Assembly (NCBI RefSeq): GCF_001735805.1
Contig: NZ_CP017248.1
Span: 1,674,001 to 1,738,000 of the forward strand
Length of the DNA: 64,000 nucleotides
DNA from: Streptomyces fodineus
GTDB taxonomy: Bacteria; Actinomycetota; Actinomycetes; Streptomycetales; Streptomycetaceae
Reading direction: 5' to 3'
How positions within the stretch are numbered: position 1 is the first letter of the stretch; every line of letters starts with the position of its first letter. Below the pieces are notes generated by a model. The model was not told the DNA's origin, did no database searches, and saw only the letters and a list, made by a program, of their open reading frames with translations. Below, piece after piece: positions 10,991 to 56,196 of this stretch. Both the position numbers and the translations under genes were made by a program.

Positions 10991-10994
<4 letters not shown>
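9471..10994 (-). CDS. FAD-dependent monooxygenase (group A, PgaE/phenol-hydroxylase-like)
   Basis: Single-component flavin monooxygenase, 507 aa. The Rossmann motif GAGPCG is at residues 12-17, the DG motif [12 protein letters not shown] lies near residue 155, and the GD motif [19 protein letters not shown] near residue 280. A C-terminal thioredoxin-like region typical of group A hydroxylases follows. The start at 10994 overlaps the PKS stop in ATGA and has GGAG upstream, so the gene is translationally coupled to the thioesterase PKS. In polyketide pathways such enzymes hydroxylate, epoxidise or perform Baeyer-Villiger reactions (family knowledge). Here an electron-rich alkene or the 1,3-diketone end of the chain is a possible target (inference). 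Confidence 0.92.
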
Positions 10995-16495
<5,501 letters not shown>

Positions 16496-16497
16496 GA

Positions 16498-19400
16498 TCA
16501 GCTCAACTCCGAGTCGATGAACCGGAAGATCTCTTCGTCGCTGGCGGCCCCGAGCCGCTCGGTGACCGACTCCCGATCGCCGTCCGGGCCCGGGGTCAGC
16601 CGGCCGACCAGTCCCTGGAGCCGGGTCAGCGCGCGCCGCCGGTCGTCCTCGCCGGACACCCCGGCCAGCACTCCGGCCAGCCGGTCGAGTTCCTCGTCCA
16701 GCGAGCCGACGGCCGCCGCGGCGGGCACCACCAGCTGCCTGCGCAGGTGCTCGGCGAGCCCGGCGGGGGTGGGATGGTCGAACACCGCGCCGGCCGACAG
16801 CCGTACGCCGGTGGCCGCGCCGAGTCGGTTGCGCAGGTTGACCGCGGCCAGCGAGTCGAACCCGAGGTCGGTGAACGGCCGCCCGGTGGGCAGTGCGTCG
16901 GGGTCGTCGTGGCCGAGCACGACGGCGACTTCCCGGCGCACCAGCTCGACGAGTTCGCGCTGCTGGTCGGCCTCGGGCAGCGAGCCGAGCCGGTCGGCCA
17001 GTTCCGGCTCGGCCGGTTCACCGTCGACGGCGGCGAGGCTGTCGCGCACCTCGGGCAGTTCGCCCAGCAGCGGGCTGGGCCGGGCGGCGGTGAACGCGGG
17101 CGCGAAACCGGCCCAGTCCACGTCGGCCACGGTCACCGTGGTGTCGGCGTGCCGCACCGCGTCGGCCAGCGCCGCGAGCGCCTGCCCGGGGGGCAGCGCC
17201 AGTACGCCGCGGCGGCGCAGCTGTTCGCGGCGGCGGGCCTCGGTGCCGGCGTCCGCCGCGCCGAGCCCGGCGCCCTCCCAGGGGCCCCAGGCGAGCGCGG
17301 TGGCGGGCAGCCCGCGGGCGTGCCGGTGCTGCGCCAGCGCGTCGAGGTAGGCGTTGGCCGCGGCGAACGCGCCCTGCTCGCTGCCGCCCCAGGTGGCCGC
17401 GACGGAGGAGAACAGCACGAACGCGTCCAGCTCGCCGGTGAGCCGGTGCAGATTGGCCGCGCCGCGCACCTTGGCGTCGAGGGTGGCGGCGAGCTCGGCG
17501 AGGCCGGTGCCGGCCAGCGGGCCGGAGCGCAGCGCGCCCGCGGTGTGCACCACCGCCGTGAGCGGTGTGTCCGCCGGGACGGCGGCGAGGAGTTCGGCCA
17601 GCGCGGTCGCGTCGGCCGGGTCGCAGCTGCTCAGGGTGACCGGAACGCCGAGATCGTCCGGGGCGGTGGCGGCCGGGTCGTCGGTGGTCAGCACCAGCGC
17701 CTGCGCGCCGTTGCCGGCCAGCCAGCGGGCCACCGGCAGGCCCATCGGTCCGAGGCCGTCGGTGACCAGTACGGTGCCGGTGGGCTGCCACGGCCGGACC
17801 GGGGTACGCCCGCCCAGCGGGGCGCGCGCGAGGCGCGGCACCAGCACCCCGGTGTCGCGTACGGCGGCCTGGTCCTCGGTGCCGGCCAGCAGCCCGGCCA
17901 GCCGGTCGAGACCGCGGCCCGGGTCCTCGGGCAGGTCGAGGATGCCGCCGTACAGTTTCGGGTGTTCCAGCGCGAGGGTACGGCCCAGGCCCCAGAGCAT
18001 GGCCTGTTCGGGGTGCGGCACCCGGTCGGCCGGGGTGGCGGCGACCGCCCCGCTGGTGACCAGCCACAGCACGGCGCCGGTGTCGGCCAGGGCGCGCACC
18101 AGGTCCAGGGTGGCGGCGAGGCCCGCGGGCACGGCGGGCTGCTCCGGGTGCGGGCCCTCGGCCAGGCCGAGCAGCGAGACCACCCCGGACGCGCCGGCCG
18201 CCTCGGCCGGTACGGCGTCCGGGCCGAGCACGCGGACCTCGGCCCCGGCGCGGGTGAGGGCGGCGGCGCAGTCCTCGGCCAGGGGCAGCCCGTCCGGGCT
18301 GACGACCAGCCAGGTGCCGGTCAGCACGGCCTCGGCCGCCTCGACGGGTCGCCAGCCGACGGTGTAGCGCCATCCGTCGGTGGTGGTGCTCGCCTCCTGG
18401 GCGGAGCGCCAGGCGGCCAGTGCGGGCAGCACCTCGGCGAGCGGTTCGGCCGGTACGCCCAGCAGGTCGGCCAGCGCCTTCGGGTCGGCGGGGTCGACCG
18501 CCGCCCAGAACGCGCCGTCCGCCGCGTCGGTGCCGGTGTGCTCCGGGGCGGACAGCCAGAAGCGCTGCCGCTGGAAGGCGTACGTGGGCAGGTCCACCGG
18601 GGCGGGCCGCGGCCCGTCGACGGCGGCGGCCAGCCGCACCGGCAGCCCGGCGACCTGCGCCTCGGCGACGGAGAGCAGGAACCGGTCGAGGCCGCCCTCG
18701 TCGCGGCGCAGCGACCCTACGACGGTCACCTCGTCCAGCGTCTCGTCGATCCCGGGCGCCAGCACCGGGTGCGGGCTCACCTCGACGAACCCGCGGTGGC
18801 CCTGTTCGGCGAGGGCACGCACGGATTCTTCGAAGCGGACGGTCCGGCGCAGGTTGCGGTACCAGTAGCCGGCGTCCAGCGCGGCCGGGTCGGCCCAGTC
18901 GGCGGTGACCGTGGAGAACATCGGCACGGCCGCCTTGCGTGGGCGCACCCCGGCGAGGGCCTCGACCAGGTGTGTCTCGATGCGCTCCACCTGCGCGGAG
19001 TGCGAGGCGTAGTCCACCGCGATCCGGCGGGCCCGTATCCCGCGTGCGTCGCAGTCGGCCAGCAGCCGGTCGAGTGCCGTGGGTTCGCCGGAGACCACCG
19101 TGGAGGCGGTGCCGTTGACCGCGGCGACCGTTGCCCCGGGGGGCAGCAGGGCGGTCACCTCGTCGGCGGGCAGCGCCAGGAACACCATCCCGCCGTGTCC
19201 GGTCAGTTCCTCGGCGATCAGCCTGCTGCGCACGCAGACCACCAGCGCGGCGTCGCGCAGGGACAGCGCTCCCGCCACACAGGCCGCCGCGATCTCACCC
19301 TGCGAATGACCCACCACCGCATCCGGCTCGACCCCGAACGACCGCCACAGCGCCGCCAGCGACACCATCACCGCGAACGACACCGGCTGCACCACATCCA

Positions 19401-21164
19401 CCCGCTCCAACGACGGCTGACCGGCCTCACCCCGCAACACACCCAGCAACGACCAGCCCACGAACTCACCCAGCGCCGAGGCACACTCGGCCATCCGCGC
19501 CCCGAACACCGGCGAGGACTCCAGCAGTTCCAGCGCCATCCCCGCCCACTGCGCACCCTGACCGGGGAACACGAACACCGTGCGGCCGGCGGCCCCGGCG
19601 GCTCCGGTGGCCAGGTGCGGTGCGGTGTCCCCGGCGGCCAGCGCGGTCAGCCCGGAGAGCAGGTCCTCCCGGTTGGCCGCGACCACCACGGCGCGGTGGG
19701 TCAGCGCGGCGCGCCCGGCGGTCAGGGCCGCGGCCAGTTCGGCCGGCCCGGCGTCCGGCTCGGCGGCCAGCCAGGTCCGCAGCCGGCCGGCCTGGGCGCG
19801 CAGCGCCGCCTCGGTGTTGCCGGACAGCGGCACCGGCACCACCCCCTGGGGCGCCGGTCGCGGGGCCGGGCTCTCCGGGGCCTGCTCGATGATCACGTGC
19901 GCGTTGGTGCCGCTGATCCCGAACGAGGACACCGCGGCACGGCGCGGCCGGTCGCGTTCCGGCCAGGGCCGTGCCTCGGTGAGCAGCCGTACGTCGCCGT
20001 CCGACCAGTCCACGTGCGGGGTGGGGGCGTCGATGTGCAGGGTGCGCGGCAGCAGGCCGTGCCGCATCGCCTGTACGACCTTGATCACCCCGGCGACCCC
20101 GGCGGCGGCCTGGGTGTGCCCGATGTTCGACTTGACCGAGCCGAGCCACAAGGGCTGGTCGCGGTCGGCGCCGTAGGTGGCCAGCAGGGCCTGGGCCTCG
20201 ATCGGGTCGCCCAGGGCGGTGCCGGTGCCGTGCGCCTCCACCACGTCGACGTCCGAAGGGGACAGCCCGGCACTGCTCAGCGCGGCGCGGATCACCCGTT
20301 CCTGCGAGGGGCCGTTGGGCGCGGTGAGCCCGTTGGACGCGCCGTCCTGGTTCACCGCCGAGCCGCGCAGCACGCCGAGGATCCGGTGGCCGTTGCGGCG
20401 CGCGTCGGACAGCCGCTCCACGACCAGCAGGCCGACGCCCTCGGACCAGACGGTGCCGTCCGCGTCCGCGGAGAAGGCCTTCACCCGGCCGTCGGCGGCC
20501 AGACCGCGCTGCCGGGAGAACTCGATGAAGGTACCGGGCGTGGACATCACGGTCGCGCCGCCGGCCAGCGCCAGCGAGCACTCCCCCGCGCGCAGCGCCT
20601 GCGCCGCCAGGTGCAGGGTGACCAGCGAGGACGAGCAGGCGGTGTCCACGGTGACCGCCGGGCCCTGCAGGCCGAAGGCGTAGGCGACCCGACCGGAGGC
20701 GACGCTGCCCGCGGTGCCGGCGCCGAGGTAGCCCTCGACGTCCTGCGGGGTGCTGGGGAGCCGGGTGGCGTAGTCGTGGTACATCACGCCGACGAACACG
20801 CCGGTGTCGGTGTCCCTGAGCGACAGCGGGTCGATGCCGGTGCGTTCCAGCGCCTCCCAGGAGGTCTCCAGCAACAGCCGCTGCTGCGGGTCCATGGCCA
20901 GCGCCTCGCGCGGCGAGATACCGAACAGCGCGGCGTCGAACTCGGCCGCGTCGTGCAGGAATCCGCCCTTGGTCAGATAGGTGTGCCCGGCGCGGTCGGG
21001 GTCGGGGTCGTAGAGCCGTTCGGTGTCCCAGCCGCGGTCGGTGGGGAACGGCGAGATGCCGTCGCCGCCGGAGGCCACCAGCCGCCACAGGTCCTCCGGG
21101 GAGCGCACCCCGCCCGGGTAACGGCAGGCCATGCCGACGACGGCGATCGGCTCGTCGGCCGGGC
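16498..21164 (-). other. PKS module M7: KS-AT(methylmalonyl)-KR(inactive)-ACP
   Basis: KS Cys4128. AT GHSQG Ser about 4571 and YASH about 4670, predicting methylmalonyl-CoA. KR cofactor region TDGLGPMG about 5085. The catalytic Tyr is Phe5218 in [11 protein letters not shown] (codon at 17365-17367 is TTC on the minus strand), whereas Lys and Asn are kept. This KR should not reduce, leaving the C5 ketone. ACP Ser about 5389. The C-terminal docking domain occupies about 5430-5506. Confidence 0.9.
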
Positions 21165-24100
21165 CGGTGCGCCGGGGTGCGGTGCGTGCCGGGGCGGCGG
21201 CCGCGGTGAGCCTGCCCAGCAGGTGGTCGGCTACGGCGGCGATGCTCGGGTGGTCGAAGGCCAGCGTGGCGGGCAGCGCCAGTCCGGTGCCGGCCGCCAG
21301 CCGGTTGCGCAGTTCCACCGAGGTCAGCGAGTCGAAACCGAGGTCGGTGAAGGCGCGCCGGTCGCCCAGGTCGGCCGCGTTGCCGTGGCCGAGGGCGGCG
21401 GCCACCGCGGTGCGTACGGTGTCGCGCACCAGCCTGGCGCGGGCGGCCTCGTCGAGCCCGGCGAACGCGGCCTGCAGCGCGCCGGTGCGTGTGGCGCGGC
21501 GGGCCGGGACGCGGACCAGGCCGCGCAGCAGCGGTGCCGGTGGGACGGTGCGGGCCTGCTCGCGCAGCACGGCCAGGTTCAGCCGGACCGGGACGGCCAG
21601 CGCGGTCCCGCCCGGTACGGCGGCGTCGAACAGCCGCATGCCCTCGGCCGCGTCGAGCGGCGTCACACCGAGCCGTTCGATGCGCTGCCGGGCGGCGCCG
21701 TCCGCGGCGTCGCCCATGCCGCCGGCGCCGGCCCACAGGCCCCAGGCCAGCGACACGGCGGGCAGGCCGGCCGCGCGGCGTCGGGCGGCCAGGCCGTCCA
21801 GCACGGCGTTGGCGGCGGCGTAGTTGCTCTGCCCCGGGCTGCCCAGGATCCCGGCGGCCGAGGAGAACAGCACGAACGCGGCCAGGTCGTGCCCGCGGGT
21901 CAGCTCGTCCAGGTGCAGCGCGGCGTCGACCTTGGGCCGGAAGACCCGGTCGACACGCTCCGGTGTCTGCGCGGTGAGCATCCCGTCGTCCAGCACCCCT
22001 GCGGCGTGCACCACGGCGGTCAGCGGGTGCTCGTCGGGGATGCCGGCCAGCAGCGCGGCCAGCGCGTCCCGGTCGGCCGCGTCGCAGGCCACCACCTCGG
22101 CGGTGGCGCCGAGTCCGGCGAGCTCGGCGACCAGTCCGGCGGCGCCCGGCGTGTCGGGGCCGCGGCGGCCGGTGAGCAGCAGGTGCCGTACACCGTGCTC
22201 GGCGGCCAGGTGCCGGGCCAGCACCGAGCCGAGCGCCCCGGCGCCGCCGGTGATCAGCACGGTGCCCTCGGGATCCCAGACTGCGGGCTCGCCGGCTTCG
22301 GCCCGGACCAGCCGCGGCACGAACACCGCGCCGTCACGGACGGCCAGTTGGGGCTCGCCGGTGGCCAGGGCGACGTTGTCGGGCACGCTGCCATCGCTGT
22401 CCAGCAGCACGATCCGGCCCGGGTTCTCCGACTGGGCCGAGCGGGCCAGACCCCACACGGCCGCGGCGGCCAGGTCGGTGCCGTCGGTTCCACCGGAGGT
22501 ACGCAGCACCAGGGCGCTGGCGGCGAACCGTTCCTGGGCCAGGAACTCCTGCACCAGAGCCAGCACTTGATGGACGGCGGTGGCGATCCGCGCCGGGGCG
22601 TCCTCGACGGCGGGTAACGACGCCAGCAGCCACTCCGGCGGTTCGGCCACGACGGCGAGGTCGAGGTCGGGGCCGAGGCTGGTGGGGGTGGGAGCCGTGG
22701 TGCGGGTGAGGGCGGGGGCGGGGGCCTTGGCGCGGGTGGGGGGCGCGCTGGCGGCGGTGGGGGCGGGGGCCTTGATGCCGGTGGCGGGCGTGCCGAGACC
22801 GGTGGGCGCAGGGCCCTCGACGCCCGTGGCGTGCCCGCCCAGATCGGCGAGGGCGGGGCCCTCGGTGCCAGTGTGGTGCTCGCCGAGATCAGTGGGCCGG
22901 GAGCCCTCGACATCCGTGGCGTGCCCGCCGAGTTCGGTGGGCACGGAGTCCTCGGTGCTGGTGGGGGGCGCGCTGGGGTCGGTGGAGGCGGGGCCCTCGG
23001 TGCCAGTGCGGTGCTCGGCGAGACGGGTGGGCACGGGGCCCTCGGCGGCCGTGGCGTGCCCGCCCGGATCGGTGAGGGCAGGGCCCTCGGCAGCCGTGGC
23101 CTGCCTGCCCCCGTCGGTCGGGGCGGAGCCCTCGGTGGCGATGGGCAGCGGCGTCCAGTCCACCGTGTGCAGTGCCTCGGTGCCGGTGTGCAGGTCGGCG
23201 GGGAGCGGGCGCAGTGCGAGGCTGTCCGCGGTGAGTACCGGGGAGCCGTGGCTGTCGTACGCGGTGATGGTGATACCGCCGTCGACCGGAGTCAGCCGCA
23301 CCCGCAGGGTTGTGGCGCCGGGCTGCCAGAGGGTCACCCCGGTCCAGGCGAACGGCAGGGCGGCCGTGCTCGCCTCGGGGTCGGTGGCGAGCGCGTGCAA
23401 CGCGGCGTCCAGCAGCGCCGGGTGCATCCCGAAGCCGCCGGGTTCGGCCGGGGCGGGCAGTTCCGCCTCGGCGAACACCTCGGCGCCGGTGGCGGTGTCC
23501 CGCCGCCAGGCCGTGCGCAGTCCGCGGAACACCGGTCCGTAGGCCAGGCCGCGGTCGGCCAGCAGCTGGTACAGCTCCGCCGGTTCGGTCTCGGCCGTGT
23601 CGGCCGGAGGCCAGTCCCCCAGCGCCGGCGCGACGCCGGCCGGCGGTTCGACGGTGCCGGTGGCGTGCCGGGTCCACGGCTCGTCGGTGATGCCCGCCTC
23701 GGCCCGGGAGTACAGGGTCACCGCGCGGCGGCCCTGCTCGTCGGGCGCGCCGAGCACCAGTTGCAGCGCGGCGCCGCCCCGCTCGGCCAGCACCAGCGGC
23801 GTGTCCAGGGTCAGTTCGGTGATCCGGCCGCAGCCCAGCTCGTCCCCGGCGCGGGTGACGAGCTCGACGTACGCGGTGCCGGGCAGCACGATCCGGCCGG
23901 CCACCACGTGGTCGGCCAGCCACGGCTGGGTGGTGGTGGACAGCCGCCCGGTGAACAGCACCCCGGCGCCGTCGGCCAGCGTGAGGGCCGCGCCGAGCAG
24001 GGGGTGCCCGACCGGGCCGAGGCCGGCCGCGCCGGCGCCGGCGGCCGTCTCGCCGGTCATCCAGAACCGGCGGTGCTGGAACGGATAGGTGGGCAGCGGA

Positions 24101-27100
24101 ACCGGCGCCGGTGCGCGGCCTTCGGTGACCGCGGCCCAGTCCGGGGAGACGCCGTGCACGTGCAGCCGGGCCAGCGTTTCCAGCAGGGCCGGGATCTCGT
24201 CCCGGCCGTCGCGCAGGGTGGGCAGCACGATCCGTTCGACGGCGGGGTCCGTTCCGGGCGCGACCCCGGCTTCCGTTCCGGTCGCGGCCCCCGGCTCGGC
24301 CCCCGGTTCGGTCCCGGGTTCCGTTCCGGTCTCGGGCCCGTACTCGGGCCCGGTTTCGCTTCCGGGCAGGCAGTCGCGGGCCATCGCGGTCAGTACAGCG
24401 GCCGGCCCGATCTCGACGAACGCGGTGGCTCCGGCCTCGGCCAGGGCGCGCACCGCGGGCAGGAACCGTACGCTGTCCCGGACGTTGGCCACCCAGTGCT
24501 CCGGGTCGGTGATCTCCCGCTCCGACAGCGGCGCCCCGGTCACCGTGGACACGACCGGCAACCGTGGCGCGGTGAACGGGATGCCGGTGACGATCTCCCG
24601 GTACTCGGCCAGGATGCCGTCCACGTGCGGGGAGTGCGGAGCCATGGTGACCCGCAACTGGCGGGTACGGCGGCCCCGTTCACGCCACTGGGCGCCGATC
24701 TCGGTGACCGCGACGGCGTCGCCGGACACCACCACCGAGGCGGGGCCGTTGACCGCGGCCAGCCGCACCTGCCCGGCGTGCGCGGCCAGCACCGGGGCGA
24801 GTTCGGCCTCGGTCGCCTGGATGGCGACCATCGCGCCGCCGGGGGTGGCCCGCGCCATCAGCCTGCCGCGGGCAGTGACCAGCGCGGCGGCATCGGGCAG
24901 ACTCAGCGCCCCGGCGACATGGGCGGCGACGATCTCGCCGACCGAGTGGCCGGCCACCAGGTCCGGGTGCAGGCCCCAGCTCTCCGCGAGCCGGACCAGT
25001 GCGACCTCTACGGCGAACAGCGCGGCCTGGGTGAAGTCGGTGCGGTCGAGCAGCGCGGCCTCGGGGCTGCCCTCGACGGCGAACAGCACCTCGCGCAGTG
25101 GCCTGGGCAGGTGCCGGTCGAGTTCGGCGCACACCACGTCGAACGCGGCGGCGTAGGCGGGGAATTCGGCGGCCAGTTCGCGGCCCGCGCCGAGGCGCTG
25201 GGAGCCCTGGCCGGGGAACAGGAACGCCAGCTTCCCGGCGTCGGCGGCACAGCCGGTGACGACGTCGGCATCGGGAGTGCCCTCGGCGAGGGCGGCAAGC
25301 CCGGCCCGTGGATCGGACAGCCCAGCCCGTGGATCGGACGGCCCGGCAGGTGGATCAGCCGGCCCACCCCCCGATTCAGCCAGCACCACGGCCCGGTACG
25401 CATGCGCGGCGCGCGTCGTCAGCAGGGAGTGTGCCAGCGCCGCCGGTTCGACGTCCGGGTGTGCCCCGAGGTGGGTCAGCAGCCGGGCGGCCTGCTCGCG
25501 CAGGGCCGCCTCGGTGCGGGCGGAGACCACGACCGGCAGTGGCAGGGGCGCCCGGGCCGGCGGCGCCGGGGGCGTCTCGGCCGGGGCCTGCTCGATGACG
25601 ATGTGCGCGTTGGTGCCGCTGACCCCGAACGAGGACACCGCGGCACGGCGGGCCCGGCCGGTGTCCGGCCAGGGCTGCGGTTCGGTCAGCAGGGACACCG
25701 CCCCGGAGGCCCAGTCCACGTGCGGGCTGGGTGCGTCGATGTGCAGCGTGCGGGGCAGCAGCCCTGCCCGGAGTGCCAGGACCATCTTGATGATCCCGGC
25801 GACGCCGGAGGCGGCCTGGGTGTGCCCGAGGTTGGACTTGACCGAGCCGAGCCACAGGGGCTGGTCGCGATCGGCGCCGTACGTGGCCAGCAGGGCCTGG
25901 GCCTCGATGGGGTCGCCCAGGGTGGTGCCGGTGCCGTGTGCCTCCACCGCGTCGACGTCCGAAGGGGACAGCCCGGCGCTGCTCAGCGCGGCGCGGATCA
26001 CCCGTTGCTGGGACGGGCCGTTGGGCGCGGTGAGGCCGTTGGACGCGCCGTCGGAGTTGACCGCGGAGCCGCGTACGACGGCCAGCACCCGGTGACCGGC
26101 GGCGCGCGCGTCGGACAGCCGCTCCACGAGCAGCATTCCGGCGCCCTCCGACCACGAGGTGCCGTCGGCGTCGGCGGAGAAGGACTTGCACCGGCCGTCG
26201 GCGGCCAGGCCGCGCTGCCGGGAGAACTCCACGAACAGCCCGGGGGTGGCCATCACGGTGGCCCCACCGGCGAGCGCCAGGTCGCACTCGCCGCGCCGCA
26301 GCGCCTGGGCGGCGAGGTGCAGCGCCACCAGCGAGGACGAGCAGGCGGTGTCCACGGTCAGTGCGGGGCCTTCCAGGCCGAACGTGTAGGCGAGCCGGCC
26401 GGAGGCGACGCTGGCCGCGCTGCCGGTGAGCCGGTAGCCCTCCACGCCCTGCGCGGCGTGGTGCAGCATCGGACCGTAGTCCTGGCGCATCACGCCGACG
26501 AACACGCCGGTCCGGCTGCCGCGCACCGCGGCCGGGTCGATCCCGGCGTGTTCGAAGGTCTCCCAGGAGGTTTCCAGCAGCAGCCGCTGCTGCGGATCGG
26601 TGGCCAGCGCCTCGCGCGGGTTGATGCCGAAGAACTCGGCGTCGAAGCCGGCGGCGTCCCGCAGGAATCCACCGTGCCGGGTGTACGACGTGCCCGGCCG
26701 GTCGGGGTCGGCGTCGAACAGTGTGTCCAGGTCCCAGCCTCGGTCGGTGGGGAACTCGGTGATGCCGTCGCCGCCGTCGAGCAGGAACCGCCACAGCTGT
26801 TCCGGGGAGCGGATCTCGGACGGGAACCGGCAGGCCATGCCGACGATCGCGATGGGCTCGTCGTCGGTGACGACGGCGGTGCCGGCCGGGGAGGTCTCCT
26901 CGGGCCGATCCTGGCTCAGGTACGCCGCCAGCGCGGCGGGGGTCGGATAGTCGAACACCAGGGTGGCCGGCAGGGTGGTGCCGGTGACCGAGGTGAGCCG
27001 GTTGCGCAGCTCCACCGCGGACAGCGAGTCCACGCCCAGTGCGCGGAACTCAGCCTGCGGGTCGACGGCGTCGGCGTCGGCGTGGCCGAGGACGGCGGCG

Positions 27101-30100
27101 GTCTCTGCGCGCACCAGTGTCAGCAGTTGCCCGGCGGTCAGTTCGGCCGGCGCAGCCGCCGCAGCGGGGTCGGCGACCGCGGCGGTCCGGCGCCGCGTGC
27201 CGCGGACCGAGGCGCGCAGCAGAGGGGGCAGGAGCGCCGGGTCGGCGGTGCCCGGGCGGACCTTGGCCGGCAGCAGCACCGGGTCGTCCAGGGCCAGCGC
27301 CGTGTCGAACAGCGCCAGCGCCTCCTCGGCGGACAGCGCCTGCACTCCGGCGCGGGCCATCCTGGCCAGGTCCGCCGCGGACAGTGCGCCGGTGATGCCG
27401 CTGGGCGGCGCCCACAGGCCCCAGGCCAGCGACTGGGCGGGCAGCCCGGCAGCGCGCCGCCGGCCGGCCAGCGCGTCCAGGCAGGCGTTGGCGGCGGCGT
27501 AGTTGGCCTGTCCCGGGCCGCCGAGGGTGCCGGTGGCCGAGGAGAACAGCACGAAGGCCGCCAGGTCGTGCCCGCGGGTCAGCTCGTCCAGGTGCCGCGC
27601 GGCGTCCACCTTGGGCCGTAGCACTGCGGCGAGCCGCTCCGGGGTCAGCGCGGTGAACAACCCGTCGTCGGCGACCCCGGCGGCGTGCACCACGGCGGTC
27701 AGCGGGTGTGCGGCGGGGATGCCGGCCAGCAGCGCGGCCAGCGCGTCCCGGTCGGCGGCGTCACAGGCCGCCACGCGCACCTCGGCGCCGAGCGCGGTGA
27801 GTTCGGCGGCCAGTTCCGGGGCGCCGCCACGGCGGCTGGTCAGCAGCAGGTGCCGTACCCCGTGCTCGCGCACCAGATGCCGGGCGACCAGTCCGCCGAG
27901 GGTGCCGGTGCCGCCGGTGATCAGCGCGGTGCCCTGGGGGTCGAGCGCGCGGGGCAGGGTGAGCACCAGCTTGCCGGTGTGCCGGGCCTGGCTGAGGAAC
28001 CGGAACGCGTCCACGGCACGGCCGATGGGCCACACCGACGGCGGGGGCGCGCTCAGCGCACCCGCGGCGAACAGCTCCAGCACCGCGGCCAGCAGCCGCT
28101 GCATCTCGTGCGGCGGCAGCTCCATCAGGTCGAACGGCCGGTAGCTGATCCCCGGGAAGCCGGCCGGGTCGCGCAGATCGGTCTTGCCCATCTCCAGGAA
28201 CCTGCCGCCGGGGCGCAGCAGTCCGGCCGAGGCGTCCACGAACTCGCCGGACAGCGAGTTGAGTACGACGTCGACGGGGCCGAACTTCGCGGCGAAGCCG
28301 GTGTCCCGGGAGGAGGCGATGTGCGCGTCGTCCAGGCCGAGGTCACGCAGCACGGGCCACTTGCTCTCGCCCGCGGTGCCGTAGACCTCGGCGCCGAGGT
28401 GGCGGGCCAGCTGTACGGCGGCCATACCGACGCCGCCGGCCGCGGAGTGGATCAGCACCGACTCCCCGGCCCGCAGCCCGGCGAGTCCGACCAGGCCCAG
28501 GTGGGCGGTGAGGTGCGCGATCGGTACGGCGGCCGCCTGCTCGAACGTCCAGCCGTCCGGGATCGGCGCGACGGCGGCCCGTTCCGCGACCGCGACCGGG
28601 GCGAACGCGTCACCGAACAGGCCCATGACCGGGGTGCCCGGGGCGAGGCCGGTGACATCGGCGGCCACCTCGGTGACCACGCCGGCGCCCTCGCCGCCGA
28701 GGGCGACCGCACCGGGGTACATGCCGAGGGCGATGAGCACGTCGCGGAAGTTCAGCCCGGCGGCGCGCACCGCGATGCGCACCTGGCCCGGTTCCAGCGG
28801 CGCGGACGCGGCCGGGGCGGGCACCAGCGCGAGGTTGTCCAGGGTGCCCGGACGGGTGACGGCCAGCCGCCAGTGCGGGTCCGCGGGCGGCACCAGCTCG
28901 GGCCGGCCCAGCCGGGGGGTGAGCAACGCACCGCCGCGCAGCGCCAGTTGGGGTTGCCCGGTGGCCGACGCGGCGGGCAGCGCGCGGCGGGACGCGGCGG
29001 TGTCGTCGAGGTCGGCCAGCACGATCCGGTCGGGCTGTTCGGCCTGCGCGGCGCGCAGCAGCCCCCACACCGCCGCGCCGCCCGGATCGGCGGGCCGGCC
29101 GGCGGGTTCGGTGACGACCGCACCGGTGGTGGCCACCAGCAGTCGGGCGGGCGCGGCGTTGGCGGCCAGCCAGTCCTGCACCTGCCGCAGCACGGCGGAG
29201 GTGACCTGTCCGGCGGGCTGCCCCGCCGGGACGGCCAGTACGGTGACCTCGGCGGCACCGTCGTCGGTGCGATGGATCCCGGCGGCGCGCAGGTCGGTGG
29301 TCAGGGCCTCGGGCAGTGCGCCCAGGACCGCCCAGGGGCCCCTGGCGGGTTCGGCGGGGGCCGGGGTGGTGTCCCAGTCCAGCCGGAACAGGGAGTCGCG
29401 GGGCACGCGGTCGGTGGCTTGTCCGGTGGCGGCGCGCAGAGTGAGCGAGCCGACGGAGGCGACCGGGGATCCGGTGGCGTCGAACAGGTCCAGTGCGACG
29501 GTGTCCTCGCCGGTGGGGGTGAGCCGGACCCGTACGGCGGATGCTCCGGCGGCGTGCAGCCGGATACCGGTCCAGGAGAACGGCAGCCGCGCGGTGCCGG
29601 TGTCGTCGGTGAGCGCGAGCGCGTGCAAGGCGGCATCCAGCAGCGCGGGGTGCAGGCCGAACCCGGTGGCGCGGTCCCGGAGTTCGGCGGGCAGGGCGAC
29701 CTCGGCGAGGATGTCCGCGCCGCGCCGCCAGGCCGCGCCGAGGCCCTGGAACGCGGGGCCGTAGTCCAGGCCGCGAGCGGCGAGATCGGCGTAGGCGGTG
29801 TCCACGGCCAGCGGGGCGGCGTCCCGGGGCGGCCAGGCCTCTTCCACGGCGACGGGTTCGTCCGGGCCGGTGGCGAGGACGCCGGTGGCGTGCAGCGTCC
29901 ACGGCTCGTCCTCGGACGCGTCCTCGGCCAGCGAGTAGATCTCCAGGTCGCGGCGGCCGGAGTCCTGGGCTTCGCGGACGGCCAGTTGCAGCCGGACCGC
30001 TCCGGTGCCGGTGAGCACCAGCGGCGCCCGCAGCACGAGTTCCTCGACCCGGTCGCAGCCGACCCGGTCGGCGGCCTGCGCGGCCAGTTCCACGAACGCC

Positions 30101-33018
30101 GCGCCGGGCAGCACGATCGCGCCCGAGACGCGGTGGTCGGCCAGCCAGGGCTGGGACGGCACCGAGAGCCGACCGGTGAGCAGATAGGCGTCGGACCCGG
30201 CCAGCGCGGTCGCCGCGCCGAGCAGCGGGTTGCCCGCCGGGAGCAGCCCGGAGGCGGCGAGGTTGCCGCCGGCGGCCGATTCCAGCCAGTAGCGGCGGCG
30301 CTGGAAGGCGTAGGTGGGCAACTCGGCCCGGGCCGCGGCGGGCAGGTACGACGCCCAGTCGACCGTACCGCCGTGTGCGTGGTACTTGGCCAACCCCCTT
30401 GCCAGGGCGCGGACTTCGCTTTGACCGCGGCGCAGCAGCGGGACGAACACCGCCGTGCTCTCCTCGGGCAGACAGTCCGGCCCCACGACACTCAGCGCGG
30501 CGTCCGGCCCCACCTCCACGAACCTCGTCACACCCAACGCATGCAGATGCGCCACCGCATCGGCAAAGCGCACCGTCTCCCGGACATTGCGCACCCAGTA
30601 ATCCGCCGACACCGGCGCCTCGCCCACCTCCACGGCGGACACGAACGGCACACTCGGCACCGCGAAACCGACACCACCGATGGCCTCACGAAACCGCCCC
30701 AACACCGGCTCCATCAACGGCGAATGGAACGCATGACTCACCCGCAACCGGGTATGCCGCCAGCCCCGCTCCGCCGCCTGGACCGCAACGGCCTCCACCG
30801 CCGACTCCGCACCGGACACCACCACAGACCGCAACCCGTTGACGGCCGCGATCCCCACCCCGCCGGAAAGGATCTCCACGACCTCGGCCTCGGTGGCGTT
30901 CACCGCCAACATCGCCCCACCCGCAGGCAACTCCTGCATCAACCCGGCCCGCGCACACACCAGCGACACCGCATCGTCCAGCGACAACACCCCGGACACA
31001 TGCGCAGCCGCCACCTCACCGACCGAATGCCCGACGACGAAGTCCGGCACCACACTGAACGACTCCAGCAACCGGAACAGCGCCACCTCGACCGCGAACA
31101 GACCACACTGCGCGAACAACGTCTGATCCAGCCGCTCACCACCGCCGAGGACCACCTCACGCACCGGCAGCCCCAGCACCGACTCCAACCGCCCACAGAC
31201 GTCCTCGAACGACTCCGCGAACACCGGATACCGCTCCGCCAGCTCCCGGCCCATCCCAGACCACTGCGACCCCTGACCGGAGAACAGGAACCCGGTCAGC
31301 CCCCCGCGCCCGGCGACCCCGGTGATCTCCCCGGACGCCCCGTCGGCCAACTCCGCGAGTCCCGCGAGCAACTCGTCCCGGTCGGCGGCCACCACCGCAC
31401 CGCGGTGCTCCAGCGCGGCACGGGACAGCGCCGCCGCGCGCGCCACCTCGGCGACGGTGGCCCCCGATGCGGCGAGCAGGTACTCACGCAACCGCGCCGC
31501 CTGCCCACGCAGCGCCTCAGCGCTACGGCCGGACACGAGCACCGGCACCGGCACCACCGGTTCGGCGACCGGCATGGGCTCAACAGCCGGAGCCTGCTCG
31601 ATGATCACGTGCGCGTTGGTCCCGCTGACCCCGAACGCCGACACTGCGGCGCGGCGGACCTCGGTGTCCGGCCAGTCGACCGCCTCGGTGAGCAGTCGCA
31701 GTGGGCCGTCGGCCCAGTCGACGTGCTCGGTCGGGGTGTCGACGTGCAGCGTGCGAGGCAGCACCCCATGGCGCATCGCCTGTACGACCTTGATCACCCC
31801 GGCGACCCCGGCGGCGGCCTGGGTGTGCCCGAGGTTGGACTTGACCGACCCCAGCCACAGCGGCCGGTCACGGTCGACGCCGTAGGTGGCCAGCAGGGCC
31901 TGCGCTTCCACGGGGTCGCCGAGCGAGGTGCCGGTGCCGTGTGCCTCCACCGCGTCGATGTCCCCGGGGGACAGCGCGGCGTTGGTCAGCGCCTCGACGA
32001 TGACCCGGCGCTGCGCCTGGCCGTTGGGTGCGGTCAGGCCGTTGGACGCGCCGTCCTGGTTCACGGCCGAACCGCGCACCACGGCGAGCACCGGGTGGCC
32101 GTTGCGCTGCGCGTCGGACAACCGCTCCAGCAGCAGCATCCCGACGCCCTCGGACCAGCCGGTGCCGTCGGCGTCGGCGGAGAACGCCTTGCACCGGCCG
32201 TCGGGGGCCAGTCCGCCGAGCCGGTCGAACTCCACGTAGGTGCCGGGGGTGGACATGATGGTCACGCCGCCGGCCAGCGCCAGCGATGTCTCCCCGGAGC
32301 GCAGTGACTGCACCGCCAGGTGCAGGGTGACCAGCGAGGAGGAGCAGGCGGTGTCCACGGTGACGGCGGGCCCTTCGAAACCGAAGGTGTAGGCGACCCG
32401 GCCGGTGGCGATGCTGGCGGCGTTCCCGTTGCCGATGAAGCCTTCCAGCTCCTCGGGCACGCTGTCCATGAGCGTCGCGTAGTCGTGGTACATCACTCCG
32501 GCGAACACGCCGGTGCGGCTGCCGCGCGCGCTGAGCGGGTCGATACCGGCGCGTTCGAACGCTTCCCAGGAGGTCTCCAGCAGCAGCCGCTGCTGCGGGT
32601 CCATCGCCAGCGCCTCGCGCGGGGAGATGCCGAAGAACCCGGGGTCGAAGTCACCGGCGCCGTCCACGAACCCGCCGAGCCCGACCGGCAGTCCGGCCAG
32701 GTCCCAGCCGCGGTCGGCGGGGAAGGCGGAGATCCCGTCCCGGCCGGCGGCCAGCAGCTCCCACAGCTGCTCGGGGGTGTCGGCCCCGCCGGGATAGCGG
32801 CAGGCCATGCCCACGATCGCGATGGGCTCGCGGCGGGCCTGTTCGATCTCGGCCAGCCTGCGCTGCGCGCTCTGCGCCTCGGTCAGCGCGCGCCGGAGAT
32901 ACTCCCGGAGCTTGTCCTCGTTTGCCGAGGTTGCCGAGGTTGCCGAGGTTGCCGAGGTTGCCGAGGTTGCCGAGGTTGACGCATTTGCCGCGTTTTCCCG
33001 GTTCACCACGTTCGCCAC
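16498..33018 (-). CDS. Type I PKS, three modules M5-M6-M7
   Basis: Trimodular PKS, 5506 aa: KS-AT-DH-ER-KR-ACP, KS-AT-DH-KR-ACP and KS-AT-KR(inactive)-ACP. The GTG start at 33018 follows GGAAGGA with 6-nt spacing. The N-terminus has a (Thr-Ser-Ala)6 tract before the docking helix [16 protein letters not shown]. The C-terminus has helices ending in [13 protein letters not shown], the standard class 1 tail. The matching helix [15 protein letters not shown] begins the next PKS. It lies 18 nt after the M3-M4 gene and 2 nt before the M8 gene, so the proteins are made together. M5 gives a fully saturated two-carbon unit, M6 an alkene, M7 leaves a ketone. M6 carries several repeat insertions not seen in the other modules. 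Confidence 0.96.
19251..19588 (-). repeat. 338-bp AT repeat, copy in M7
   Basis: This stretch of the M7 acyltransferase is collinear with and nearly identical to 51189-51526 in the M1 acyltransferase. Both are 338 bp, with roughly ten differences by eye. It covers the N-terminal part of the AT, including the GHSQG active site. Confidence 0.9.
22729..23133 (-). repeat. Nine tandem 15-residue (45-bp) repeats inside M6
   Basis: From Glu3296 the protein repeats a 15-residue unit with the pattern EG-x-x-PTDxGxHATxx about nine times, followed by a decayed Ala/Pro/Thr tail ([13 protein letters not shown]). Copies differ at several positions, so the array is old or under relaxed constraint. It sits after the DH and before the structural half of the KR, where the other modules have only a short linker. 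Confidence 0.92.
24247..24366 (-). repeat. Gly/Thr/Glu/Pro-rich tract after the M6 acyltransferase
   Basis: A run of short GTEPG, GAEPG and GPETG-like units of about 40 residues lies between the AT core (MARDCLPG) and the post-AT linker ([12 protein letters not shown]). The DNA is correspondingly repetitive (gttccggg, cccggttcg variants). The other modules lack it. Confidence 0.85.
25305..25367 (-). repeat. Three 21-bp tandem repeats in the M6 KS-AT linker
   Basis: Units start at 25305, 25326 and 25347 (plus-strand CCCGTGGATCGGAC... variants). They encode [15 protein letters not shown] and SDPRAGL heptads in the KS-AT linker. The first two units differ at about two positions. Confidence 0.85.
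30427..31308 (-). repeat. 882-bp AT repeat, copy in M5
   Basis: Nearly identical and equal in length to 40771-41652 in M3. It covers almost the whole malonyl acyltransferase from the conserved GMGREL region to the C-terminal subdomain. Minus-strand codons here include many CAT, TTG, GGT and GTG, unlike the C-ending codons of the flanking KS and DH. Confidence 0.92.
32922..32975 (-). repeat. Six perfect 9-bp repeats encoding (Thr-Ser-Ala)6
   Basis: TTGCCGAGG on the plus strand occurs six times without a mismatch. On the coding strand this is ACC TCG GCA, giving Thr-Ser-Ala six times, just before the docking helix of the M5-M7 PKS. The unit keeps the reading frame, so slippage would change the linker length without breaking the protein. 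Confidence 0.97.
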
Positions 33019-43356: not shown

Positions 43357-46300
43357 TCAGTTCCCGCCGAGTTCGCGCTCGATGAGGTCGTACATCTCCT
43401 CGTTCGAGGTCGGGTCGAAGTCGTCGTCGTCCACGTGGCCGCCGATCAGCGACAACATGGCGCGCAGCCGCAGTTCGATGTCGGTCCGCTCGCCCTCGAC
43501 ATCCGCCTCGGACAGTCGCTTCGAGAGCCGGTCCAGTTCGGTGAGCAGGGGTGGTTCGGGGGGCGCCAGCCGGGTGCGCAGGTACTCGGCCACCGCGGCC
43601 GGTGTGGGCTGGTCGAAGACGAGCGTGGCGGGCAGCGGCAGCCCGGTGGCCTCGCGGAGCCGGTTGCGCAGCTCGACGCCAGTCAACGAGTCGTAGCCCA
43701 GGTCGCGGAACGGCCGGTCGGGGCCGATCGCGATCGCACCCGAGTGGCCGAGCACCACGGCGGCCTGCTCGCGCACCAGCCGCAGCAGGGTGCCGCGGCG
43801 TTCGGTGTCCGACAGCCCGGCCAGCCGCTGCGACCAGGCGGAACCCGACGGCTGCGCCTCCGGCTCGAAGGCCTGGCGCAGGGCGCGCTGTGCCTCGGGG
43901 ATCTCGGCGAACAACGGCCGGCTGCGGGCCGAGGTGAACAGCGGCATGAACCTCGCCCAGTCCACATCGGCCACCGACAGACCGGTCTCGGCACGTTCGA
44001 GGATGGTGCGCAGCGCGTCCAGCGCCGGACCGGGCGCGATCAGCGGCAGGCCCTGGCGGCGCAGCTGGCCGGCGTCCACCCCGTCCGGGAATCGGGCGCC
44101 GTCCCACACGCCCCAGGCCACCGAGGTCACCGGCAGACCGGTCGCGCGGGCCTGTTCGGCCAGCGCGTCCAGTTCGGCGTTGGCCGCGGCATAGGCGCCG
44201 TGGTCGCCGCTGCCCCACACTCCGGCGATGGAGGAGTAGAAGACCAGCGCGTCCAGCTCGGCCGGGTCGAGCAGTTCGAGGAGGTGCCGGGCGCCCTGGA
44301 CCTTGGCGGTGAGTACGTCGGCGTACTCGGCCAGGTCGGTGCCGGTCAGCGGGGCCAGCCGCATCAGCGCGGCGGCGTGTACGACGGTGCGCACCGTCTC
44401 GCCCTGTTCGCGCAGCCCGGCCAGCAGCGCGGCGACGGCGGCCCGGTCGGCGATGTCGCAGGCCCGCGCGGTCAACCGTACGCCGAGGACGTCGAGTTCG
44501 GCGGCCAGCCCGGCGACTGTCTCGGCGCCCGCTCCGCTGCGGCTGACCAGCACCACGTGCCGCACGCCCTGCCCGGCGAGCCAGCGGGCGACCTCCGGGC
44601 CCAGCGCGCCGGTGCCACCGGTCACGAGCGCGGTGTCCCTGGCCTGCCAGCGGCCGGCCGGGCCGCCGGCGGGCGGGGCGTGCACCAGCCGCCGCAGCAG
44701 CGTGCCGGAACCGCGTACGGCCAGCTGGTCCTCCTCGCCCCAGCCACCGGCCAGCGCGGCGCGCAGCTGCTCCAGGGCGGCCTCGTCCGGTTCGGCGGGC
44801 AGGTCGACCAGGCCGCCCCAGAACGCCGGGTGTTCCAGCATCGCCACCCGGCCCAGGCCCCACACCTGCGCCGCGCTCGGCTCGCGCAGCGGGTCGGTGT
44901 CGCCGGCGCGGACCGCGCCGGAGGTCACCAGCCACAGCGGCACGGTCGCGGCCAGATCGCCCAGCGCCTGTACCAGTGCCAGGGTGGCGGCCACGCCGGC
45001 GGGCACCACCGGGTGTTCCGGGTGCGGGCGGCGGTCGGCGGCCAGCAGGGACAGCACGCCGCGTGGGGTGTGCTCGGCCAGTGCGCGGCGCAGCTCATCG
45101 GTCAGGGCGGCGCGGTCGGCGTGTTCGGTGTCCACGGTGAGGGCGCGCACCGGCAGGCCGCCGACGAGCGTCTTCAGCCAGTCCGGATCGGCGCCTGACG
45201 CGGGCACCAACGCCAGCCACTCGCCGTCCGGTTCGGTGTGCTCCGGTGCGCCCGCAGCGCGCCACTCGACCCGGTAGCGCCAGGTGTCGGACCGGGAGCC
45301 GGCCTGCTCGGCCAGCCAGTACCACCGGTGCTGGAAGGCGTAGGTGGGCAGGTCCACCTGCCGTGCGCCGGTGCCTGCGAACACCTCGGCCAGCCGCACC
45401 CCGGCCCCGCGGACGTGCGCCTCGGCCAGCGAGTGGGCGAACCGCGGCCAGCCGCCGTCGTCGCGGCGCAGCGTGGACAGGACGACGGCCCGCGCGCCGG
45501 CGGCGTCCACCGTCTCCTGCACGCCCGGGGCGACCACCGGGTGCGGACTGATCTCGATGAAAGTGCCGATCCCGGTGTCCAGCGCGGCGCGCACGGCGTC
45601 GGCGAAGCGGACGGTTCGGCGCAGGTTGGTGTACCAGTAGTCGCCGGTGAGTTCGCGGGTGTCCAGCCGCTGCCCGGTGACCGTGGAGTACAGCTCGATC
45701 CGCGTCGTCTCCGGGCTGATTCCGGCGAGCAGCCCGGCGAGACTGTCCTTGACGGCGGTGACCTGGGTGGAGTGCGAGGCGTAGTCCACGGCGATGCGCC
45801 GGGCCCGTACCCCGCGTGCCTCGCAGTCGGCCCGCAGCTCCTCCAGGGCGGAGGGGTCCCCGGATACGACGGTGGAGGCGGGGCTGTTGATCGCGGCAAC
45901 GTCCAGCCGGTCGTCGGCGAACAGGGCCCGGACCTCCTCGGCGGGCAGCGCCACCGACATCATGCCGCCCTTGCCGGACAGTCCGGTCAGCGCGCGGCTG
46001 CGCAGGCACACCACCGCGGCGGCGTCGTCCAGGGACAGTGCCCCGGCCACGCAGGCCGCGGCGATCTCGCCCTGCGAGTGGCCGATCACCGCCTCCGGTT
46101 CCACGCCGTGCGCACGCCACAGCGCGGCCAGCGACACGGTGACCGCGAAGGTCACCGGCTGCACCACGTCGACCCGTTCCAGCGACGGTGCGCCCGGCAC
46201 ACCGCGCAGGACGTCCAGCACCGACCAGTCGACGTATGTCTCGATCGCGGCGGCGCACTCGGCCAGCCGGGCGGCGAACACCGGTGCGGAGTCCAGCAGT

Positions 46301-47999
46301 TGCAGTGCCATCCCGGCCCACTGCGCACCCTGGCCGGGGAACACGAACGCCACCCGCCGCGCCGTGTCGGCCGCTGTGCCGCGCAGCACGCCCGGGGTGT
46401 CCCGGCCCTCGGCCAGCGCGGCGAGCCGTTCGCCCAGTTGCTCCGGGCCGGCGGCCAGCACGACCGCGCGGTGTTCCAGGGCGGCCCGGCCGGCGACGCT
46501 GGACCAGGCGATGTCCAACAGCCTGTCACCGGGGTGACCGGCGAGGTGCGCACGCAGCCGCGCGGCCTGCGCGCGCAGTGCGTCCTCCGTCTGACCGGAC
46601 AGAGCGACGGGCAGCAGCCGCGGCTCGGTGTCCGGCCGCGCCGCACCGGACTGAGGGGCCTGCCCGGCTTCCGGCCGCCCGGAACCCGAGACGTCGACCC
46701 GCTCGTCCTCCCCCTGCTCGATGATGACGTGCGCATTGGTGCCGCTGATGCCGAACGAGGACACCCCGGCTCGGCGCGGGCGGCCGGTGTCCGGCCAGGG
46801 CTGTTCCCCGGTGAGCAGCCGGACCCCGCCGGATGCCCAGTCCACGTGCGGGGAGGGCTCGTCCACGTGCAGCGTGCGGGGCAGCACACCGTGCCGCAGC
46901 GCCTGCACCATCTTGATCACGCCGGCCACCCCGGCCGCGGCCTGCGCGTGCCCGATGCCGGACTTGACCGACCCCAGCCACAGCGGATCGCCGTCGCGGC
47001 CCTGGCCGTAGGTGGCAAGCAGCGCCTGTGCCTCGATCGGGTCGCCCAGGGGCGTCCCGGTGCCGTGGCCCTCCACCGCGTCGACGTCCTGAGCGGACAG
47101 CCCGGCGGCGGCCAGCGCGGCGCGGATCACCCGCTCCTGCGCGGGACCGTTGGGTGCCGTCAGGCCGTTGGACGCGCCGTCCTGGTTGACCGCCGAGCCG
47201 CGCACCACGGCCAGCACGCGGTGGCCGCGCCGGCGTGCCGCGGACAGCGGCTCGAGCAGCAGCAGGCCGACGCCCTCGGACCAGCCGGTGCCGTCGGCCG
47301 CCCCGGCGAAGGACTTGCACCGACCGTCCGCGGCCAGCCCGCGCTGCCGGGAGAACGCGGTGAACGTGGTCGGCTCGGCCATCACCGTCACCCCGCCGGC
47401 CAGCGCCAGCGAGCACTCCCCGGCGCGCAGCGCCTGCGCCGCCAGGTGCAGTGCCACCAGCGAGGAGGAGCACGCCGTGTCCACGGTGACCGCGGGCCCC
47501 TGCAGGCCGAGGGTGTAGGCGACCCGGCCGGAGGCGACGCTCGCGGCGGTGCCGGTGAGCAGGTGCCCCTCGACGCCCTCGGGCAGCTCGCGCAGCGTGG
47601 TGCCGTAGTCGTGGTACATCACGCCGGTGAACACGCCGGTCTGGCTGCCGCGCACCGAGAACGGGTCGATCCCCGCCCGTTCCAGGGTCTCCCAGGCGAT
47701 CTCCAGCAGCAGCCGCTGCTGCGGGTCCATCGCCAGCGCCTCGCGCGGCGAGATCCCGAACAGCCCGGCGTCGAAGCGGCCGGCGTCGTAGAGGAATCCG
47801 CCGTGCCGGGTGTAACTGGTGCCGGGGTGGTCCGGGTCCGGGTCGTACAGGCCGGTGACGTCCCAGCCGCGGTCGGTGGGGAAGGTGCCGATGGCGTCGC
47901 CGCCGGAGGCCACCAGGTCCCACAGGTCCTCCGGGGAAACGATCCCGCCCGGGAAGCGGCAGGCCATGCCGATGATCGCGATGGGCTCGTCCGCGGCGG
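43357..47999 (-). other. PKS module M2: KS-AT(methylmalonyl)-KR-ACP
   Basis: KS Cys2885. The second His motif reads KSGIGH where KSNIGH is usual. AT GHSQG Ser about 3350 and YASH about 3449. KR cofactor GGTGALG about 3837, no LDD, and [10 protein letters not shown] with Trp and His before catalytic Tyr (about 3978), the A2-type pattern. ACP Ser about 4145. Predicts a C15 hydroxyl next to a C14 methyl. No DH. Confidence 0.92.
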
Positions 48000-56124: not shown

Positions 56125-56196
56125 GCGTGATTCCCCCTCCACTCCACGTCACGTCGCCTCACGGGCGAGGACACGCCGGTCTGCCCGGCGGGCACT

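Follow-up and report, generated by a model that had tools for sequence, protein, structure and literature searches.

Results

Organization of the locus

The window analysed here, a stretch of 64,000 nucleotides from the Streptomyces fodineus genome (G000), contains on its minus strand a modular type I polyketide synthase (PKS) gene whose translation reads as three modules (Table 1). Pfam assigns KS, AT, DH, KR and ACP domains to the second module, and it is this module that carries the tandem array with which we are concerned. Elsewhere in the window, at 43357-56142, lies a PKS protein that starts with a KS in which the active-site motif is DSAQSSALV, with Gln for Cys, and which we take to point to a KSQ-type loading module.

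Table 1. Positions, in the window, of the array, its host gene and the neighboring features.
Feature	Position	Strand	Basis
Modular type I PKS gene, 5,506 aa, three modules, array in the second	16498..33018	-	ORF and translation
KR catalytic (Rossmann) domain, PF08659	21730..22266	-	Pfam, coordinates converted
Array tail, part aligned with the single loop of orthologs	22648..22692	-	translation, ortholog alignment
Tandem array, ten 45-bp / 15-aa units	22693..23142	-	translation, TRF, lag identity
First strand of KR structural subdomain (LHTVDW), directly before the array	23143..23172	-	AF2 strand 33-41; weak local alignment
DH domain, PF21089 and PF14765	23194..24006	-	Pfam, coordinates converted
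Second repeat expansion, array module, AT end	24243..24366	-	TRF, ortholog comparison
Third expansion (SDPRAGL-type), 21 aa gained in the KS-AT linker of the array module, missing from 3/3 orthologs	25299..25365	-	TRF, ortholog comparison
(TSA)n run near PKS N-terminus	32922..32990	-	TRF, ortholog comparison

A diverged array of 15-residue units

Translation of the minus strand resolves the array into ten in-frame units of 45 bp, or 15 residues, the last one or two of them degenerate; units and tail together span 22648-23142. The DNA identity of the array is 0.70 at a lag of 45 and 0.33-0.37 at lags of 42-44 and 46-48. The TRF score of the segment is 376, as against a maximum of 85 over 300 codon shuffles, and the head-to-tail copies are thus beyond chance; the array also has the highest TRF score in the whole window (391). 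An earlier note on this DNA had reported a 15-residue array at 22690-23133. The TRF and lag-identity values establish that this array is real, and the translation bears out the unit length and the copy number, put at about nine in the note and at about ten here. The coordinates were near, though the units run from 23142 to 22693 and the tail extends to 22648. Since the copies are only ~70% alike in DNA and the genome is a single contig, assembly error would be an unlikely source of the array. With a 45-bp unit in frame inside an intact gene (an open frame of 5,506 codons), the array is an intragenic tandem repeat.

We searched for the array in other sequences. A protein search of its own genome (E <= 0.001, best 150 of 210 candidates scored) found it nowhere else, and a protein search with array and flanks across 61 genomes (its own and 60 relatives, best <=47 candidates each) matched only its own. 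In a contig scan one Saccharothrix deserti locus matched query residues 2-112, which comprise the DH end and a few residues after it. A DNA search of the S. fodineus genome with the array region gave, among the matches listed, a single other place, at 74% and in the DH part. The dispersed element CCCGTCCGGCG, considered as a source of the array, has no match in this genome. Among the papers listed by the literature searches, no title or abstract opening describes such an array. The earlier note had suggested searching PKS sequences with the repeat and had known of no described PKS element like it; among the matches listed the array sequence indeed occurs only at its own place, but tandem growth as such is common in PKS linkers and KR loops, as shown below.

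Two candidate mechanisms were tried and rejected. G-quadruplex-driven instability has no support, since the array contains a single G4 motif and at least that many are present in 36 of 424 windows of 450 bp. GGG runs number 25 where windows average 10.2, a value attained in 3 of 1,271 overlapping windows, some of which probably cover the array; this density only reflects the G-rich template strand. Selection for disorder would be expected to deplete hydrophobic residues, and no depletion is shown: 13 of 135 residues are hydrophobic, whereas a GC-biased simulation averages 8.2 (95% range 5-11) and one with a uniform mutation spectrum 17.4 (P 0.11). Divergence was somewhat lower among the simulated copies (0.25) than among those of the array (0.31).

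The array lies within the structural subdomain of the KR

Pfam recognizes no family within the array stretch. In an AF2 model built with 77 aligned sequences, pLDDT is 31-40 over the bulk of the array, and the surrounding KR scores 92-98 for the most part. The array occupies model residues 43-192, of which the first dozen score higher, and values stay below 50 at residues 56-183. The model places one strand before the array (residues 33-41) and another after it (213-217). Foldseek and VIA-align match the KR model to solved PKS KRs, namely 9pc6_A (model residues 22-586, Z 52.0, rmsd 1.8, 378 aligned) and 2fr0 (residues 27-586, Z 41.2, rmsd 2.5, 407 aligned), where the ranges mark the first and last aligned residue only. 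The array is thus flanked on both sides by solved KR fold, with a weak local alignment between the strand before it and a solved PKS module. On the strength of the pLDDT values and the KR structure matches, we read the array as an insertion, predicted to be disordered, into a loop of the folded KR structural subdomain. It had previously been placed between DH and KR; Pfam, AF2 and structure alignment instead put it inside this subdomain, after the LHTVDW strand. The extended, flexible nature proposed for it agrees with the AF2 prediction.

The KR structural subdomain is described as a purely structural support (PMC11228615), and modelled KRs that lack parts of it are reported (PMC9899208), accounts that agree with a tolerance of this subdomain for changes in size.

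Orthologs carry a single copy of the loop

Among 392 genomes of the genus, that of S. fodineus being one, a DNA search turned up generic PKS similarity in 296 (E <= 1e-5). Just two of the others matched the flanks strongly, G086 (2e-122) and G104 (1e-111), the next best being 6e-31, and no further ortholog was found at E <= 1e-60 among 150 relatives of each. A search of 394 family genomes, a set that overlaps with the others, added G721 at 77% DNA identity and two weaker relatives, G522 and G565, at 67%. Pieces of the gene cluster are collinear with G086 and G104 at about 83-92% DNA identity, and the protein is 85-88% identical to its orthologs in G104 and G086 and about 75-79% identical to that in G721.

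The array is absent from all three orthologs, each of which has one 15-residue loop at the site: VRTRADGPTPTELGPDLDL in G086, VPAGTDGPEPTGLGADFDL in G104 and VAADTDGPPPAELGPDLDL in G721. The loop of G522 likewise has no array, and G565, whose module frame was not recovered by the search pattern, is left out of the count. Copy number therefore varies among relatives, with about ten units in S. fodineus and one in each of the three orthologs; this comparison is between species, whereas the check suggested in the note was between related strains. We scored the G086 and G104 proteins with a position-weight profile of the unit made from copies 1-8. Among 4,611 in-frame windows of the G086 protein the loop 15-mer has the highest score, 21.0 bits, and the G104 loop likewise leads its 5,364 windows, with 14.3 bits. 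Other PKS ORFs, in 219,318 windows, reach at most 14.9 bits, a background exceeded by the G086 score but not by the G104 score alone. Being the best match to the unit in both proteins, the single ortholog loop is probably the seed from which the array grew.

Divergence of the copies

Between copies dN/dS comes to 1.13 for copies 1-8 and 1.25 for copies 1-9, with a bootstrap interval over both of 0.59-2.96 that is wide and drawn from copies that are not independent. These values exceed the 0.28-0.32 found between orthologs for the flanks, where the KR part gives 0.23-0.32 and the DH part, just before the array, is under weaker constraint than the flank mean (0.41-0.61). Among the eight first copies E4 is conserved in all, and T1, G5 and T9 in seven, which could be residual constraint.

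Copy dS is 0.33-0.35 (interval 0.15-0.59), an interval that spans the ortholog dS of 0.22-0.27, and copy dN is 0.39-0.42 (interval 0.26-0.56), at or above that ortholog value. The copies differ by ~30% in DNA and by 26-28% at third positions. The third-position distances of 0.168, 0.187 and 0.193 put the S. fodineus branch at about 0.08, so that drift at this rate would yield at most about 0.16 between copies. The copies have therefore diverged beyond the neutral drift predicted for this branch, which leaves an older array (with three losses), faster mutation, diversifying selection, import or misregistered units as possible explanations. The earlier note had read the copy differences as a sign of persistence; the differences stand, but the inference is only half safe, because they exceed what neutral drift since the species split allows.

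Taking G721 as the outgroup because it is the most distant, we counted codon changes in the flanking KR on each branch: 10 silent and 5 replacement in S. fodineus, 14 and 3 in G086, and 24 and 16 in G104. The flanking KR shows no obvious relaxation on the S. fodineus branch. The three species form a near-star, with 53% iqtree support for one internal branch, and the simplest history suggested by these sequences would be a single gain of the array on the S. fodineus branch.

Repeat growth elsewhere in the gene and in other PKS loci

The array is not the only repeat growth in its gene (Table 1). The AT-end repeat of the same module comprises 28 residues in S. fodineus, 13 in G086, 7 in G721 and none in G104. 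The (TSA)n run is absent in G104, the one ortholog compared, the G086 sequence meeting a contig end there. Over the homologous part of the gene TRF covers 957 bases in S. fodineus, about half of them in the array, 240 in G086, 229 in G721 and 0 in G104. Lesser expansions particular to G086 include a tandem GDRVPGDRVPG.

Two further stretches of the window deserve mention. At 30450-31500, within the PKS gene, the coding strand has a GC skew of +0.30 and a TA skew of +0.41, as in the GRINS (genetic repeats of intense nucleotide skew) of PKS genes; self-BLAST of the window gave this stretch no partner above 85% and 300 bp. At 14919-15057, in the KS-AT linker of the PKS ORF at 10991-16495, there are repeats, and the alignment of the DNA to G086 and G104 is interrupted there.

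To place the array among other synthases we examined fetched PKS loci, in which motifs delimit 145 DH-to-KR spans. Setting aside 20 spans of more than 420 residues, mostly with an ER, leaves 125 of <=420 residues, of which that of the array module is the longest (391 residues; next 368). This is the fair comparison, since a reference alignment giving loop lengths of 42-115, built on 76 of the 116 usable references, omitted most of the longest modules, which bear such elements. Twenty-two of the 125 spans exceed 300 residues; nine of these carry a QARPAFEDRGPGAEP-type sequence and others short repeats (L085, L086, L019).

TRF applied to 1.25 Mb of PKS regions, which were chosen for matching the query and in which the window and L054 share about 4 kb, gave 215 arrays scoring at least 50 in 252,124 residues of PKS. 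Thirty score at least 80, six of them between the last DH/AT motif and the KR Rossmann motif and six on the KS-AT side. Six of the 12 scoring at least 100 lie before the KR motif, including the S. fodineus array and that of L071, which is 381 residues upstream of the motif and may belong to a different domain. Linkers and KR-subdomain loops of PKSs are thus common sites of repeat growth in this sample, and the S. fodineus array is the extreme case.

Several of these repeats are of interest in themselves. The second-best TRF score, 214, belongs to a 121-residue AGDRVPT-like array in a KS-AT linker of L095 (G383:C1:5645001-5665000, at 11441-11803). On the minus strand of L019 a run of about 15 Ala-Glu dipeptides lies in a KR structural-subdomain loop. 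The nine spans with QARPAFEDRGPGAEP-type sequence hold one to three in-frame copies, also in a loop of this subdomain (L096, L097, L098, L099, L100, L106 and L110, from G407, G079, G395, G120 and G189; L099, for example, on the minus strand). The corresponding DNA core AAGCCCGTCCGGCGNTTGAGGAC, at <=1 mismatch, occurs on both strands in seven of nine genomes, with 4 to 40 matches per genome when those in PKS genes are counted; S. fodineus and G104 have none, and a reversed-pattern control gave 0 in all nine. The QARPAFEDRGPGAEP-type segment thus appears to be a repeat dispersed in the genome that has been taken into the protein.

Discussion

We consider that the array probably arose in this lineage alone, by in-frame tandem expansion of a disordered loop in the KR structural subdomain, and that it is probably tolerated by the enzyme and without a sequence-specific role. 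The ancestor would have had one copy of the loop, about TxxDGPxPTxLGPDL, of the kind kept in G086, G104 and G721. In the S. fodineus species the 45-bp loop may then have been duplicated repeatedly, presumably through slippage or unequal recombination. Since 45 bp is divisible by three and the loop is both exposed and disordered, ~145 extra residues could be fitted in with the KR fold undisrupted, consistent with the structure prediction and the constraint on the flanks. The array would most likely be at most a passive, flexible filler, because purifying selection on its amino acid sequence is not measurable, within a wide dN/dS interval; we infer from this that a sequence-specific role is absent. 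Of the functions raised in the earlier note, its option of a tolerated expansion is the one that the data favor over a spacer or a binding element, because three of three orthologs do without the array, dN/dS between copies is about 1 and the same gene contains other expansions.

A flexible spacer, in which length and disorder are selected to give the reductive domains or the ACP extra reach or separation, seems to us improbable. Predicted disorder, a site in a KR loop and a frame that has stayed open across ten copies would all suit it, and a dN/dS near 1 does not test selection for length. Against it stand the three orthologs, with protein 75-88% identical, that manage without an array, and the hydrophobic content, which is not depleted relative to the GC-biased neutral simulation (13 observed, 8.2 expected). 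Moreover, both ends of the array appear to be anchored in one subdomain, so that it should not separate DH from KR; the specific suggestion that it spaces the reductive half from the DH is disfavored by this geometry and by the orthologs. That each unit is a short motif bound by another protein is very unlikely indeed. The E-G-P-x-P-T core is partly conserved, yet the array has no match elsewhere in the genome among the candidates scored, belongs to no Pfam family and is absent in the orthologs, and its dN/dS is about 1. These observations disfavor the partner-binding option of the note.

The age of the array admits another reading, that it predates the species split and has shrunk to one copy in the other lineages. 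Tandem repeats contract easily, and copy dS tends above ortholog dS. Such a history would need separate contractions in G086, in G104 and in G721, the remotest ortholog, each to one clean copy, and we hold it to be about as doubtful as the spacer. A broader proposal would make KR structural-subdomain loops recurrent insertion ports of PKSs, where local seeds expand and dispersed repeats land in frame, the copies of the array changing faster than neutral drift allows, through local hypermutation or diversifying selection inside a catalytic megasynthase; this we regard as unlikely, if less so than the readings just discussed. Hardly any weight can be given to the idea that the array is a GRINS or part of one. 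PMC10394414 and PMC9899208 define GRINS by >80-90% identity to another region of the same PKS over about 0.5-1 kb, with skew cut-offs of 25% and 0.15, respectively. The array is strongly skewed (coding-strand GC -0.24, TA -0.33), exceeding 0.15 in both measures with GC just under 25%, and it shares with GRINS the repetitive, skewed DNA within a PKS gene. However, it is only about 450 bp long, it lies outside the catalytic core, its skew is opposite in sign to that of the stretch at 30450-31500, and neither the protein search of the genome nor self-BLAST of the window (pairs >85% and 300 bp) turned up a second copy. By the duplicated-region definition of those papers, and over these searches, the array is not a GRINS.

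The tolerated expansion that we prefer has parallels in intragenic minisatellites of disordered segments, which are likewise arranged head to tail and in frame with a unit that is a multiple of 3 bp, are of low-complexity Pro/Thr/Ala/Gly/Glu composition and predicted disorder, and differ in copy number between species. The S. fodineus array differs in lying within a folded megasynthase KR subdomain rather than in a terminal or interdomain segment, and in the strong divergence of its copies. Other PKS repeat growth (TDATGAH in L085, GPEAAVL in L086, the 121-residue KS-AT linker array of L095) resembles it in kind of site and in being tandem and in frame, with other unit sequences and lower TRF scores (next best 214, against 391). 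The truncated KR3 and KR6 subdomains of azalomycin F, as modelled in PMC9899208, are reported to change size in the outer part with the fold kept; two helix-strand pairs are lost there, whereas a disordered array is gained here.

The array offers a clean before-and-after case in which a loop of a PKS catalytic domain has swollen by about 145 residues (the insert relative to orthologs being 145 residues) and the KR around it is still constrained. Engineers could use its site to introduce tags or spacers into PKS modules, and programs that call domain boundaries may set the DH-KR border wrongly at such inserts. If the excess divergence of the copies is true, the array would be a test of repeat mutation in high-GC genomes.
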